From NCBI GenBank assembly GCA_002704915.1, contig PAIP01000013.1, forward strand, positions 1 through 56,656: a stretch of 56,656 nt of DNA, in the 5' to 3' direction. Of the stretch, positions 973 to 45,527 are shown in pieces (the stretch's first letter is position 1; the number at the start of each line of letters is the position of its first letter). Position numbers and translations under genes: made by a program. The stretch is from Parvularcula sp. Its GTDB lineage: Bacteria; Pseudomonadota; Alphaproteobacteria; Caulobacterales; Parvularculaceae. The notes below the pieces were generated by a model that saw only the letters and a list, made by a program, of their open reading frames with translations, was not told where the DNA came from and ran no database searches.

Positions 973-1989
973 ATGGCGGACAAAGTCCTCGTTACCGGCG
1001 TCAGCGGTTTTATTGCGAAACATGCGGCGCTTCAGCTTCTGAACAAAGGCTATGAAGTGCGCGGCACCATCCGTGCGCTGAGCAAGGCGATCCAGGTCAA
1101 GAAATCACTCGAAGAGGCCGGGGCGGATATCGACCGCCTTTCCTTCGTCGCCGCGGACCTGTCGTCGGACGAAGGCTGGGAGGAAGCGGCGCAGGATTGC
1201 GACGGCGTTCTTCACATCGCCTCTCCCTTCCCCACATCGCAGCCGCGCGACCGATATGCGCTGGTTCCCGCCGCCCGGGACGGCGCCTTGCGCGTCCTGG
1301 AGGCTGCGAAAAAAGCGGGACATATCGTAATGACCTCATCCATGGTGGCGATGATGTATCGCCCGGACCGCCCGCCTGTCATGCCGGTCACCGAAGACGA
1401 CTGGACCGATGAGGACTGGAGACCGGTGACGCCTTACGCCGTCTCAAAGACTGCGGCCGAACAGGCGGCCTGGGACGCAGCAGTCATTGGCGGCTTCAAG
1501 CACCGCCTCACCACCGTCAATCCCGGGCTGGTGCTGGGACCGCCGCTCGACGACGATGTGGGCGCGTCGCTTGACCTCATTAAACTGATGATGAAAGGCG
1601 CCTATCCGGCGCTGCCCAAGGCGTCCTATCCCATAGTCGACGTCAGGGATGTGGCGGCGCTGCATCTGGCGGCGCTCGAGACTCCAGAAACCGGCGGCCG
1701 CCGCCTCATCGCGTCCGCCGATACTCTTTCGCTGAAAGACATCGCCGCTATTTTGCGCGACAATTTTCCTGACTATGCGAAGAAAATTCCATCCGCCAGC
1801 CTTCCGGACTGGCTCGTGCGCGTGATGGCGAATGTGGATCGCAATATCGCCTCGGTCCTGCCCGATCTTGGCGTCGAGCCAAAAGCGCAGACGGACTATG
1901 TCACGGATCTCACCGGCGTCACGTTTCGTCCAGCGCGCGACGCGGTTATTGACGCCGGCGGGACATTGGCGCGCCTAAAAGCGATTTAA
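973..1989 (+). CDS. NAD(P)-dependent extended SDR (dihydroflavonol-4-reductase/aldehyde reductase-like)
   Basis: This is a 338-residue extended short-chain dehydrogenase/reductase. The Rossmann signature TGVSGFIA sits at residues 8-15. The active-site pair YxxxK is YAVSK at 155-159, preceded by the TSS segment at 121-123 that supplies the catalytic serine. Sequence flavour is that of dihydroflavonol-4-reductase and aldehyde or cinnamoyl-CoA reductase relatives, which reduce aldehydes or ketones with NAD(P)H. The real substrate cannot be read from the sequence. The start at 973 has a strong GGAAGG six to seven bases upstream. It lies 42 bases after lipB on the same strand and may be co-transcribed, with no evident functional link. 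Confidence 0.85.
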   Translation: MADKVLVTGVSGFIAKHAALQLLNKGYEVRGTIRALSKAIQVKKSLEEAGADIDRLSFVAADLSSDEGWEEAAQDCDGVLHIASPFPTSQPRDRYALVPAARDGALRVLEAAKKAGHIVMTSSMVAMMYRPDRPPVMPVTEDDWTDEDWRPVTPYAVSKTAAEQAAWDAAVIGGFKHRLTTVNPGLVLGPPLDDDVGASLDLIKLMMKGAYPALPKASYPIVDVRDVAALHLAALETPETGGRRLIASADTLSLKDIAAILRDNFPDYAKKIPSASLPDWLVRVMANVDRNIASVLPDLGVEPKAQTDYVTDLTGVTFRPARDAVIDAGGTLARLKAI

Positions 1990-2878: not shown

Positions 2879-3592
2879 TCACGACTCTAGAAGCTTCAGA
2901 AATCGCGCGACGATAAGGAAGTCCGCTTTCAACCGCTCTTCGCGCACTTTCGCTTCCTCGTCGACGCCCCAGCGCTCTTCCTGAAAACGCTCATCGATGC
3001 GCGAGGCCTCGAAGATGGCTTCAGGCTCGTCAAACCGTTTCCACAGCGCAAGGGCGAGAACGGCCGAGCCGGAAATCGCTGTCGCGATCTGCAGCGCGAA
3101 AAGGGTTTCCGGCGATATGTCAGCCAGCACCGCGCGCACGGCGGCCATAGAGGCGTCCGCCTGAGGTACGGCCATCACGCCGGCGGTCGTCACCAGAATG
3201 GCGCCGAATTCAGCGCGCATAAACTCAACATACGCATCCCATGAGGCCGCCTGTCGCTCCGCCAGCGCCTGCGGTTCCTCCGCGCGATAGCATACGAGAT
3301 CGGAGCCCAGATATTTCACAATCTCTTCACGCCAGGCGTCGGCGTCTTCAGCACCGCCATCGATTGATGCGGAGAGCATGCCCGTCAACGGCATGGAAGC
3401 GCGGTCGATATGCTCGCCCTGGCCGGCCCATTCCGCCGCAATCGCCTCAGCAGCCGCTTCTGTCGGAGCCGAGAGAATGTTGCGCCCCATGGTCTTCGCC
3501 AGACGCCCGTCCAGCGCGATTGCATGACGGCCTTCATGGGGGATGATGGAGACCTCTTGATAAAATCTCTTGGGACCGACGGTTTCGCTCAC
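2879..3592 (-). CDS. ATP12-family F1-ATPase assembly chaperone
   Basis: A 237-residue member of the ATP12 family, which binds F1 alpha subunits and helps assemble ATP synthase in mitochondria and alphaproteobacteria. Recognisable features are the start RFYQEVSIIPHEGRHAI with the DGRLAKTM segment, a central Glu/Ala-rich helical domain and the WGVDEEAKVREERLKAD stretch near the C-terminus. The GTG at 3592 is chosen because it overlaps the stop of the upstream pseudouridine synthase (GTGA), typical of translational coupling, and because conserved sequence begins right after it. The open frame continues upstream to 3814, but only over the rluC coding region. It is the last gene of the run that starts with the ABC exporter or degP. 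Confidence 0.88.
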   Translation of the reverse strand: MSETVGPKRFYQEVSIIPHEGRHAIALDGRLAKTMGRNILSAPTEAAAEAIAAEWAGQGEHIDRASMPLTGMLSASIDGGAEDADAWREEIVKYLGSDLVCYRAEEPQALAERQAASWDAYVEFMRAEFGAILVTTAGVMAVPQADASMAAVRAVLADISPETLFALQIATAISGSAVLALALWKRFDEPEAIFEASRIDERFQEERWGVDEEAKVREERLKADFLIVARFLKLLES

Positions 3593-43520: not shown

Positions 43521-43949
43521 TTACCCCTGCACCTCAAGGCCCATGGCCCGCGCTGAACCCATGATGATCTTCGTCGCCGCATCGAGATCGTTGGCGTTGA
43601 GATCCTTCATTTTCGCTTCGGCGATTTCGCGGCACTGGGCCGTCGTAATCGTGCCGGCGACCGCCTTGCCAGGCGTCTGACCGCCCTTTTGCAGCTTCGC
43701 CGCTTTTTTGAGATAATAGGACGCTGGCGGCGTCTTCGTCACAAAGGTGAACGACTTATCGGAAAAGATGGTGATGATGGTCGGAACCGGCATCCCCTTT
43801 TCCATTTCCTGCGTCTTGGCGTTGAACGCCTTGCAGAATTCCATGATGTTGAGACCGCGCTGGCCGAGCGCCGGACCGATCGGGGGCGACGGCGTAGCCG
43901 CTCCGGCCGGCACCTGAAGTTTCAGGTAGCCTGAGATTTTCTTCGCCAT
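43521..43949 (-). CDS. rplK: 50S ribosomal protein L11
   Basis: A 142-residue L11 at the GTPase-associated centre, needed for RelA activation and the target of thiopeptides. N-terminal [21 protein letters not shown] with the conserved prolines, [13 protein letters not shown], and C-terminal [10 protein letters not shown] are diagnostic. Its own promoter is predicted at 44092-44120. The genes secE and nusG, usually just upstream, are absent from this window. Confidence 0.99.
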
Positions 43950-44091
43950 TTTAAAGCCTTCTCGTTTGCTTATGGCGGAAGCCGAGTTAACAGCGCCCGC
44001 CCGTTGAAGGGCCGCGGTGCGGTGTTCAAGATTTGCGGGCCTTCGCCCGCGGGCATGGACTTACGCCCGAACACCTCCCGCGAAGGCGCGC

Positions 44092-44154: not shown

Positions 44155-44268
44155 GAATAAAGAACGGGCGGCCCCTATGGGGGACTTGGGACCGCCCGTC
44201 TGATACGCAACTCTACAATACTGATACGCTACTGAGCACTAGAGAAACTGGCGGAGCCGCCGCTCTCA
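44155..44268 (-). ncRNA. Candidate small RNA 2 (about 115 nt) upstream of rplK
   Basis: A promoter-like site at 44275-44303 would start a transcript near 44268. It runs through a GAGA/TCTC-flanked GGCG-CGCC hairpin (44242-44267) and two copies of a nine-base repeat, to a GC hairpin ACGGGCGG/CCGCCCGT (44164-44171 with 44192-44199) followed by TTCTTTATTCT. There is no open frame of note. The terminal stem has a long loop and an imperfect U-tract, so termination may be partial, and the transcript could also read into rplK. No match to a known RNA family is claimed. Confidence 0.35.
44200..44229. repeat. Nine-base direct repeat, two-turn spacing
   Basis: CTGATACGC occurs at 44200-44208 and again at 44221-44229, start-to-start distance 21 bases, which is two helical turns. 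This is the spacing expected of paired protein-binding half sites, but it lies inside candidate small RNA 2, so an RNA role is also possible. Confidence 0.6.
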
Positions 44269-44274
44269 AGTGAT

Positions 44275-44303
44275 GTTATAAACTTACACCCATAAAGATG
44301 CAA
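44275..44303 (-). promoter_or_regulatory. Promoter-like site for candidate small RNA 2
   Basis: TTGCAT (44298-44303), 17 bases, TATAAC (44275-44280) on the minus strand; four of six and five of six matches to the sigma-70 consensus. It begins eight bases beyond the U-tract of the terminator of candidate small RNA 1. Confidence 0.5.
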
Positions 44304-44310
44304 GCCGATG

Positions 44311-44349
44311 AAAAATTCCCCTCAGAGGGGAGAGAAGCTCTGAGGGGAA
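44311..44349 (-). terminator. Intrinsic terminator at the 3' end of candidate small RNA 1
   Basis: TTCCCCTCAGAG and CTCTGAGGGGAA pair over 12 bp around a ten-base pyrimidine loop, followed by five T on the minus strand. It lies about 360 bases after the methyltransferase stop, too far to be that gene's natural end unless the spacer is transcribed for its own sake. Confidence 0.85.
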
Positions 44350-44623
44350 GTACGGTTGGGAGAAACCAAGCAACCACCGGAACATGAGAGAGGAAAGAAA
44401 CGTTCCCGGTCGGCGCTTTACACAACTTGCGAGGGGCGGCGAGGCGAAATCAGCACGGGGGAGAGAGAACGCTGACCGCCTCGCCTACGCGGGTAAACAC
44501 AACGCCCTCGCGATGAGTGGAATATTGCAACGACTTGGCCAAAAGTCGCGGCAAAAATGTGTCTTTTTTACGTTACAAGATCACGTATTGTTAACGCATC
44601 TTACGCTCACACTGAGCATAAAT
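44311..44623 (-). ncRNA. Candidate small RNA 1 with four tandem CU-rich hairpin loops
   Basis: No minus-strand gene is found here, yet consecutive stem-loops can be read by eye. A: CGACTT/AAGTCG at 44531-44548. B: 44488-44512, imperfect. C: 9+5 bp at 44438-44485 with loop UCUCUCUCCCCC. D: 8 bp at 44376-44410 with loop UUUCUUUCCUCUCUC. E: GGUUG/CAACC at 44354-44375 with loop UUUCUCC. F: a perfect 12-bp terminator stem at 44316-44327/44338-44349 with loop CUUCUCUCCC, followed by UUUUU at 44315-44311. Loops C-F are all pyrimidine-rich and complementary to Shine-Dalgarno sequences. D and E abut, and E and F are four bases apart. The architecture recalls alphaproteobacterial regulatory RNAs with CCUCC-type loops, but I do not recognise this RNA. 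The 5' end is uncertain; a promoter-like site at 44630-44658 would place it near 44623. Confidence 0.5.
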
Positions 44624-44629
44624 AGAGCA

Positions 44630-44658
44630 AGTATTTGTAATATATAAGATATTCTCAA
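44630..44658 (-). promoter_or_regulatory. Promoter-like site upstream of candidate small RNA 1
   Basis: TTGAGA (44653-44658), 17 bases, AATACT (44630-44635) on the minus strand within the AT-rich stretch 44530-44700, which contrasts with the GC-rich surroundings. Five of six and four of six consensus matches. Chance matches are more likely in AT-rich DNA, so this is a weak call. Confidence 0.35.
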
Positions 44659-44708: not shown

Positions 44709-45527
44709 TCACCTGTGCTGCTCCGCCGGCGCCAGCTCCGCATCGACCATATTGACGAAAAACTCCCGCAAAAACGGAAGCCCGTCCACCACCGGCAACC
44801 CGCCAGCGGTGCGATAGCGGCGGCGCAAAGGACGAAGGCCGCCCTCCCCGATCAGACGCTCGAACATGGCGACCGTCATTCGATTCATCCCCGGCGACCA
44901 GCTCATCGCGCCGTCATCGCGGTAGAGACTGCGGATGCGAAAGACCGTTTTTTCGGAAAACAGAAGATTGATCCACGGCGCGCGGGTGAAGAAGTGCATG
45001 TGATGGCCATAAGGCGCCATCCAGAGGGGCCCGAAGCTCATATAGATCCGGCCGCCTGGCGCCAGCGCCTCTTTCATCTCGCGAAGATTCGCCGCCGGCT
45101 CAATGAAATGCTCCATGGCGTTCTGGGAGATGACAATATCGAACTGGCCGGAGACGCGCTCGGCGAAGGAAACATTCGCGGCGCCCTCCTTAGCCGCCAG
45201 CGCCGCGCCATGGGCGCGGCGGTTCTCCTCGATCTCGACGCCGAGGACCTGCGCCGCGCCCGCCTTTGCGAGGGCAACAGACTGGAAGCCATCGCCGCAG
45301 CCATAGTCGAGAACGCGCTTGCCCTTCGCTGTCTCCATGAAGCCGGGAAAGGCCTCCTCCAGAAGCGCCAGCGCAGACTCTACATTCCATTGCGTTGTGG
45401 GTTTTTCGTAATTCGACGTCCGGTCAACATCTTCGGGATGATCGGACAGCGCGAGCAGCAAACGCTCGCCAAGGGTCATGGCGCCGAGCTTCTCCGATGC
45501 GAGTGCGAATTTCCCCCGGCGTCGCAT
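44709..45527 (-). CDS. SAM-dependent class I methyltransferase
   Basis: A 272-residue methyltransferase. Motif I is VLDYGCGDG at residues 72-80, the acidic end of beta-2 is GVEIEEN at about 96-102, and motif IV region reads FDIVISQNAMEHF. The C-terminal part (about 165-260) with PLWMAPYGHHMHFFTRAPW and NRMTVAMFERL is like methyltransferases found in glycan or lipid modification clusters; the substrate is unknown. It starts three bases after the pdhC stop, so it is read with the pdh genes. Confidence 0.8.
   Translation of the reverse strand: MRRRGKFALASEKLGAMTLGERLLLALSDHPEDVDRTSNYEKPTTQWNVESALALLEEAFPGFMETAKGKRVLDYGCGDGFQSVALAKAGAAQVLGVEIEENRRAHGAALAAKEGAANVSFAERVSGQFDIVISQNAMEHFIEPAANLREMKEALAPGGRIYMSFGPLWMAPYGHHMHFFTRAPWINLLFSEKTVFRIRSLYRDDGAMSWSPGMNRMTVAMFERLIGEGGLRPLRRRYRTAGGLPVVDGLPFLREFFVNMVDAELAPAEQHR

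Follow-up and report, generated by a model that had tools for sequence, protein, structure and literature searches.

The window, that is, the whole stretch of 56,656 nucleotides of Parvularcula DNA that was analyzed, carries on its minus strand the gene rplK, preceded by the promoter of the rplK operon, by a series of tandem hairpins and by a methyltransferase gene (table 1). The preliminary description of this DNA had placed no gene on the minus strand of the hairpin region, and no protein gene is evident there; across the 87-codon open reading frame on the plus strand (44384–44647), relatives show insertions and deletions that are not multiples of three (by eye). We found that in the genus, wherever a locus contained both genes, the hairpin region, hereafter the RNA, is flanked by pdhC (pyruvate dehydrogenase E2) and rplK; in G015, these two genes are 1.6 kb apart. 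The insertion of the methyltransferase gene was found only in the window's own species (G000) and in G005 among the loci examined (tblastn, E 1e-8). The closest rplK among the records searched belongs to an uncultured Parvularculaceae bacterium (88% identity). Three order-level relatives (G039, G043, and G047) have secE and nusG before rplK and no such RNA region (by eye).

The −35 box of the rplK promoter begins 7 nt past the U-run of the RNA's terminator, and TGTAAGTTTATAACATCAC of this promoter is kept with few changes in most of the g1, g5, and g6 regions compared. In the rplK leader, one of the two motifs preceding the terminator-like hairpin, GUUGCGUAUC, is uninformative by itself (11 matches in the own genome vs. 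5 for the reversed pattern). Just before rplK, at about 44000–44083 of the minus strand, lies a stretch of the form GCGGGAGG..AAG(A/T)CC..CCGCACCGC, which is found again upstream of many of the alphaproteobacterial rplK genes compared and which we take to be possibly an L1 mRNA site. A second rplK, 73% identical, is present in the same assembly (contig C54, positions 3010–3435); perhaps it is contamination, which is listed at 3.29%.

Table 1. Features around rplK in window coordinates, with the basis of each assignment
Feature	Position	Strand	Basis
Methyltransferase gene, flanked by pdhC and the RNA gene	44709..45527	-	Pfam PF13489
Upstream element (A/T)ACAnnnCGTGAT, possible transcription-factor site	44580..44592	-	23 aligned homologues
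Promoter-like block GCCGCGA - 18 nt - CAATATT	44521..44552	-	Alignment of 23 homologues
Hairpin 1, GUUGUGU in loop (consensus GUUGYGU)	44488..44513	-	Covariation of helix 1
Hairpin 2, conserved core, 16 bp, loop UUCUCUCUCCCCCG	44438..44485	-	25 of 28 genus genomes
Hairpin 3, loop UUUCUUUCCUCUCUC	44376..44410	-	Folds in window; G005 counterpart has another stem and a loop containing CUCCCCUCUCUCUU
Hairpin 4, 4-5 bp, loop UUUCUC, weak	44354..44375	-	Minimum-free-energy fold; absent from G005 fold
Intrinsic terminator, 12 bp, loop CUUCUCUCCC, then UUUUU	44311..44349	-	GC-rich stem and U-run
rplK-operon promoter TTGCAT - 17 nt - TATAAC	44275..44303	-	Sequence
rplK-leader terminator-like hairpin, loop AAGUCCCCCAUA, preceded by GUAGCGUAUC and GUUGCGUAUC	44163..44200	-	Sequence
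rplK (ribosomal protein L11)	43521..43949	-	Pfam PF00298, PF03946

Considering that a comparison of fold energies with shuffled sequences had been proposed, the minus strand from 44623 to 44311 was folded and set against 100 dinucleotide-preserving shuffles. Its minimum free energy was −114.9 kcal/mol, the shuffles had a mean of −85.7 (sd 4.8), and none of the 100 was equally stable (z −6.06). At least five consecutive stem-loops had been described. The last four are present where they had been placed (44485–44438, 44410–44376, 44375–44354, and 44349–44316, minus strand) and expose the four CU-rich loops, of which three are clear and the other, UUUCUC, sits on a weak stem; the last stem is the 12-bp intrinsic terminator that had been recognized. 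The most upstream stem (about 44553–44530) probably does not belong to the RNA, because it overlaps the promoter-like block and is not kept in relatives (by eye). The claim that such loops exceed chance also held. Among the 49 stem-loops of the window with stems of at least 9 bp on either strand, an all-pyrimidine loop longer than 6 nt occurs only in the terminator of the RNA. A search with the Rfam 15 covariance models, likewise proposed beforehand, found no family above its curated threshold for the RNA, the sole match in the window being a tRNA; at a relaxed threshold, positions 44250–44650 gave three implausible eukaryotic matches, all below threshold. Neither was any Rfam 15 family found in 12 further loci.

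Upstream of the hairpins, the CGTGA columns of the upstream element are invariant or at least 90% conserved among the 23 aligned homologues. GCCGCG/A stands at the promoter place in 15 of the 23 (by eye), with no gap before the AT-rich box. To judge from its sequence, this arrangement (GCCGCG/A, 18 nt, AT-rich box) is probably the promoter of the RNA, and the transcript would start near 44514. The product would be a non-coding RNA of about 200 nt with its own promoter, encoded by the minus strand between about 44514 and 44311 and ending just before the rplK promoter.

The distribution of this RNA was investigated by several routes. BLAST found homologues (E < 0.003) in 16 genomes besides the own one, 15 of the genus plus G032, and reading of the rplK upstream regions added six further genus homologues. 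The resulting alignment holds 23 sequences (22 genus genomes and G032), and the covariance model built on it found the RNA in 25 of the 28 genus genomes, each with E < 1e-6 and always on the rplK side. Since 22 of these 25 were already in the model, the independent confirmations within the genus are G019, G024, and G026, which the alignment does not include. For the three genus genomes without a match, the cause is a gap in the assembly: no rplK was found in G010, rplK is cut at a contig end in G008, and the contig ends inside the region in G023. Outside the genus, G031 has the RNA in the same place before rplK (E 5.6e-4), and weaker matches were obtained in G035 (E 0.023), G063 (0.078), G066 (0.081), and, doubtfully, G065 (0.013). 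G032, G031, G035, and G063 have CU-loop hairpins on compensated stems (e.g., GGUGAGGC/GUCUCACC). Under strict filters, the model gave no match at E <= 0.1 in 23 genomes of g2, g3, g4, g7, and g8; by eye, G034 (g8) and G030 (g4) have, immediately ahead of rplK, a hairpin whose loop contains UUUCUCUCUCCCCC or UUCUCUCUCUCUCUCCCCC. In the own genome, there are two weak model matches (E 0.088 and 0.585).

What is conserved in the genus is the upstream element, the promoter-like block, the 5′ hairpin with GUUGYGU in its loop (in many homologues, hairpin 1 has the form GUCGCCGGG..CCCGGCGGC), and one hairpin with UUCUCUCUCCCCCG or a close variant. On the minus strand, a structured non-coding RNA with conserved pyrimidine loops is well supported, but the set of four CU loops first described is not its conserved unit. 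A variable stretch follows on the 3′ side of hairpin 2, with an A+T-framed terminator in several species. The further CU hairpins are lineage-specific: in the fold sample, which comprised 15 usable relatives (the other nine RNA-bearing genus genomes lie outside it), the same further CU hairpin together with a CU-loop terminator was found only in G005, whose terminator carries the loop UUUGUCUCUCUCCC. Close to the position of the window terminator, a TTCCC..GGGAATTTT stem closed by a short mixed loop is present in several relatives. G014 and G022 each have one additional CU hairpin peculiar to them (CCUCUCUCUCCCU in G014, loop UUCCUCCC in G022). Among these folded relatives, CU hairpins were therefore apparently added more than once.

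Compensatory changes in relatives, which had been named as a further check, were found. In the 23 sequences, 10 of the 20 pairs on the rplK side changed on both sides, and 88.2% of the cells were paired, compared with 35–59% in slid structures. All five covariation measures were reached by none of 500 shuffles; these shuffles ignore relatedness, whereas the slid structures allow for it and pair far worse both here and at the second locus described below. Helix 1, which forms hairpin 1, had two-sided changes in six of its nine pairs and 77.3% of its cells paired; the support for this hairpin is weaker in the window because the window's clade uses a shifted register. Helices 2 and 3, which form hairpin 2, were paired in 99.5% and 89.9% of the cells. 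Three pairs of the upper stem of hairpin 2 showed two-sided changes. In the lower stem, only one of eight pairs did so and four never varied, so that its conservation comes close to that of the loop. Such a nearly fixed stem indicates that the loop is not the sole selected part on the rplK side.

A similar structure occurs elsewhere in the genome, where it lies 3′ of genes for a pirin and a NifU-like protein and faces a LysR-type gene (Pfam PF02678, PF01592, and PF03466); it is one of the 24 places in the own genome that hold TCTCTCYCCC. Of the 28 genus genomes, 27 gave a match to the NifU-like protein, and tandem hairpins with C/U-rich loops stand beside its gene, two in 23 of the 27 (21 scored by script, G004 and G002 from folds) and at least one in 24. 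The script itself had counted 25 with at least one, from which G024 was removed as its loop is not C-rich. G003, G011, and G024 have no such hairpins, and G017 has a single C-rich one. The loop of hairpin a is mostly UUCUCUCCCCC, with CUCCUCCCC in five genomes, while hairpin b is terminator-like with a loop of mostly CUCCCCC or UUCCCCC; overall the loops are of the UCUCUCCCCC and CUCCCCC types, and in five genomes a loop contains CUCCUCC, the plain anti-Shine-Dalgarno sequence. In an alignment of 23 of the 27 sequences, picked by presence of the motif, 94.1% of the cells were paired (32–46% in slid structures), and 13 of 20 pairs changed on both sides, in 51 cells. The covariation score was 0.388 vs. 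0.214 in shuffles (reached by 0 of 500); four measures were reached by none of the 500 shuffles and one by three.

The strand can be read from the kinds of mismatch. On the CU strand, G-U pairs outnumbered A-C mismatches by 16 to 3 in hairpin 2 and by 26 to 8 at the second locus; in the window, the U-run follows the last stem on that same strand. The minus, CU strand is therefore supported as the strand of the RNA, as are its structure, conservation, covariation, and recurrence at two loci. The stems of the two loci are unrelated and the loops alike, so the shared loop was either selected for the same partner or is convergent.

It had to be considered whether ordinary terminators of the genus carry CU loops. 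This idea was rejected for a biased sample of 28 terminator-like hairpins (distinct sequences, both strands, loops up to 16 nt), in which 10 were the rplK-side RNA, the rplK leader, or the second locus; among the other 18, mostly with short mixed loops, none had a loop of at least 6 nt that was at least 80% pyrimidine (manual count). In a redundant sample of 60 terminator-like matches in 229,782 bases, the loops of ordinary terminators were likewise mostly short and mixed. Outside the 28 hairpins there is one exception, L113, which had been selected for holding the motif. TCTCTCTCCCCCG occurs there and at two other places of the genus (L124, like L113 in G004, and L126 in G005), which are possible further CU-loop loci; it forms the loop of a terminator between unrelated genes at L113 and the loop of a stem preceding a terminator at L124. 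These results bear on the view that the RNA acts only in cis, as tandem terminators that would insulate the rplK operon from pdhC (or the methyltransferase gene) and shield 3′ ends, with no function in trans for the sequence of the loop. A T-rich stretch follows the CU hairpin in 11 of 20 sequences (manual count), the region stops short of the rplK promoter by the few nucleotides given above, and hairpin b of the second locus looks like a terminator, all as this view would have it. We nevertheless regard it as unlikely, given the absence of such loops from the other 18 hairpins, the conservation of the loop across the 23 aligned sequences, and the promoter-like block between the preceding gene and the hairpins.

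In the own genome, TCTCTCYCCC was matched 27 times (at 24 places) and the reversed pattern 7 times. Five of the 24 places fall in stem-loops of −22 kcal/mol or lower, compared with about 5% of random places, and four do so under stricter scoring. The five include the rplK-side RNA and the second locus; the other three (L244, L245, and L254) are inside long open frames and may be coding. A genome-wide dispersed family of CU hairpins is thus only weakly supported. At 3 of the 24 places (L239, L247, and L261), GGGRGAGAGA, which is complementary to the CU loops, stands directly before an intrinsic terminator and is a possible target or sponge. For the one of these three that lies beside greA, a GA-rich sponge RNA was considered and rejected, not being conserved as such in the 26 loci compared: GGAGAGAG with GUUGCGU was found on the greA side only in the own genome, G022 has GGGGAGAG within a terminator-like stem-loop near that place, and at other spots of the greA loci G012 has GUUGCGU and G015 has GGGGGAG.

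The other conserved motif of the RNA, GUUGYGUA, present once in the hairpin 1 loop, forms tandem arrays in the rplK leader, upstream of pheS (G001, G015, and G023), and after a GroEL-like open reading frame (by eye) and other genes. Two-copy arrays had 19 matches (some overlapping) in the 28 genus genomes vs. 5 for the reversed pattern. The tandem stands just before hairpins, mostly terminator-like ones, at 44163–44223 of the window (the rplK leader), at L177 (about 1459–1520, minus strand), and at L323, L324, L332, L334, L336, L337, and L339, and a hairpin directly followed the array in all eight non-rplK loci read. Only 2 of 28 terminators have GUUGYGUA upstream, and it is therefore not a general feature of terminators. 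Before pheS, at L177, L332, and L339, there are short Phe-rich frames (e.g., MKNVAVFPFRAFAQFEGLFTGAL, translated by eye) that resemble the classical pheST attenuator. The motif raises the question of whether the RNA acts mainly on its neighbor, forming with the rplK leader a single control system of the rplK operon, by attenuation or through a shared binding factor. Both elements have GUUGYGUA and C-rich terminator loops, and the neighborhood is constant in the genus. However, the arrays also precede hairpins after unrelated genes, the second CU locus lies elsewhere in the genome, and the RNA of G032, which is in the model, is some 70 kb from its rplK; we consider such a neighbor-bound role highly unlikely.

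The explanation to which we give most weight, with a probability just short of even, is that these RNAs are cuckoo-like and that their loops occlude GGGGAGAG-type Shine-Dalgarno sequences. The window RNA would then be the local copy of a genus RNA composed of the 5′ hairpin with the GUUGYGU loop and a hairpin presenting UUCUCUCUCCCCCG. We infer that it is transcribed from the promoter-like block and that its exposed loops act in trans on several mRNAs, base-pairing with purine-rich GGGGAGAG(A)-type Shine-Dalgarno sequences and repressing translation. In the own species and G005, the extra CU hairpins may provide each molecule with more binding sites, as has been suggested for cuckoo RNAs, and the second locus would yield another RNA, or a 3′ UTR, with two such loops. 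An anti-Shine-Dalgarno role is our best guess: that the two loci present similar loops on unrelated stems, that a molecule carries several of them, and that a CUCCUCC variant exists would all agree with base pairing at ribosome-binding sites, a mode of action proposed for SmelA075 and SmelA099 (PMC3927594) and reported for SisA of Caulobacter (PMC12559287).

CGGGGGAGAGAGAA is exactly complementary to the loop of hairpin 2. The own genome has 63 occurrences of GGGGAGA-N3-10-ATG vs. 9 of the reversed pattern, and 10 of 30 rows (29 of the 63 places) open a reading frame of at least 100 codons, a raw count without control. Since GGGGAGA contains GGAG, an excess before ATG is expected of any Shine-Dalgarno sequence; these counts mean that such regions exist and are not proof of targets. 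Among 6-mers before ATG in 153 kb of own DNA, GGGGAG (z −0.2) and GGGAGA (0.4) were not enriched, GGAGAG was weak (2.1), and AAGGAG was higher (3.9). This ranking is noisy, and the position of AAGGAG over GGGGAG argues against GGGGAGAG as the main Shine-Dalgarno signal of the organism. No conserved target emerged. The same loops could instead dock an RNA-binding protein, which the RNA would titrate or by which it would be stabilized; Rho, cold-shock protein, and PNPase are candidates that prefer C/U. Slight variation of the loop (UCUCUCCCCC, CUCCCCC, and UUCCCCC) would be compatible with a protein site, of which the conserved lower stem of hairpin 2 could form a part, and the second locus has several loops per molecule. 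But to our knowledge no protein is known for this loop motif, and both the complementarity of the loop to a sequence found before many ATGs and the CUCCUCC of five genomes speak against protein binding, which seems to us unlikely.

No description of this RNA was found among the matches listed in the open-licence literature, where no title named a bacterial RNA for the strings UCUCUCCCCC, CUCUCUCCCC, UCUCCCCC, and GUUGCGUAUC or a Parvularcula small RNA of this kind. RsaE and Lhr, C-rich-motif RNAs of the Firmicutes, have exposed C/U-rich loops by which they base-pair to G-rich initiation regions; they differ from the present RNA in phylum and architecture.

Within the Alphaproteobacteria, PMC12559287 describes the alpha-R8 RNAs SisA–D of Caulobacter crescentus as having an anti-Shine-Dalgarno pyrimidine stretch and an intrinsic terminator, SisA repressing many mRNAs; the core UUUCCUCCCU is single-stranded after a weak hairpin, and most species show a link to the N-formylglutamate amidohydrolase gene. 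The present RNA is alike in its alphaproteobacterial origin, pyrimidine stretch, and terminator, but its pyrimidines are in hairpin loops and its link is to rplK. A single-stranded UUUCCUCCCU core before the terminator was not found in the window RNA.

The closest parallel is the cuckoo family, in which, according to PMC3927594, SmelA075 and SmelA099 of Rhizobiales and CcsR1–4 of Rhodobacter sphaeroides consist of three and four hairpins that all show the loop CCUCCUCCC; their stems are more variable, there are several copies per genome, and the RNAs were proposed to block ribosome-binding sites. The CcsR RNAs are co-transcribed with a DUF1127 gene at the CIN1 locus, as PMC10253847 states. Tandem hairpins with the same pyrimidine loop are common to that family, to the window (four, three of them clear), and to the second locus (two, in 23 of 27 genomes). 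However, most of the rplK-side homologues folded have one CU hairpin plus the GUUGYGU hairpin, and the loops here are UUCUCUCUCCCCC or CUCCCCC. CCUCCUCCC is absent from the loops of the 23 rplK-side and 23 second-locus sequences, the nearest being CUCCUCCC in five genomes, and DUF1127 (PF06568) was found in none of the 28 genus genomes (of 14 control genomes, one, E. coli, had it). Because of this different motif and the absence of DUF1127, the likeness to cuckoo/CcsR that had been pointed out does not amount to membership.

We tentatively hypothesize, at a probability clearly below even, that the Parvularculaceae have a separate family of loop-presenting RNAs that evolved independently of cuckoo/CcsR and without DUF1127. 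It would occupy at least two loci, with the same UCUCUCCCCC loop on unrelated stems and a loop number growing by lineage, and the GUUGYGUA signal before the terminator would link these RNAs to the rplK leader and to other 3′ ends. If so, the positions of the copies, beside rplK and the NifU-like gene, would allow links to ribosome supply and Fe-S metabolism to be tested, and the two loci, with like loops on unrelated stems, would be a natural experiment showing which features such RNAs have to retain. It would also mean that loop-presenting anti-Shine-Dalgarno RNAs arose more than once in the Alphaproteobacteria.
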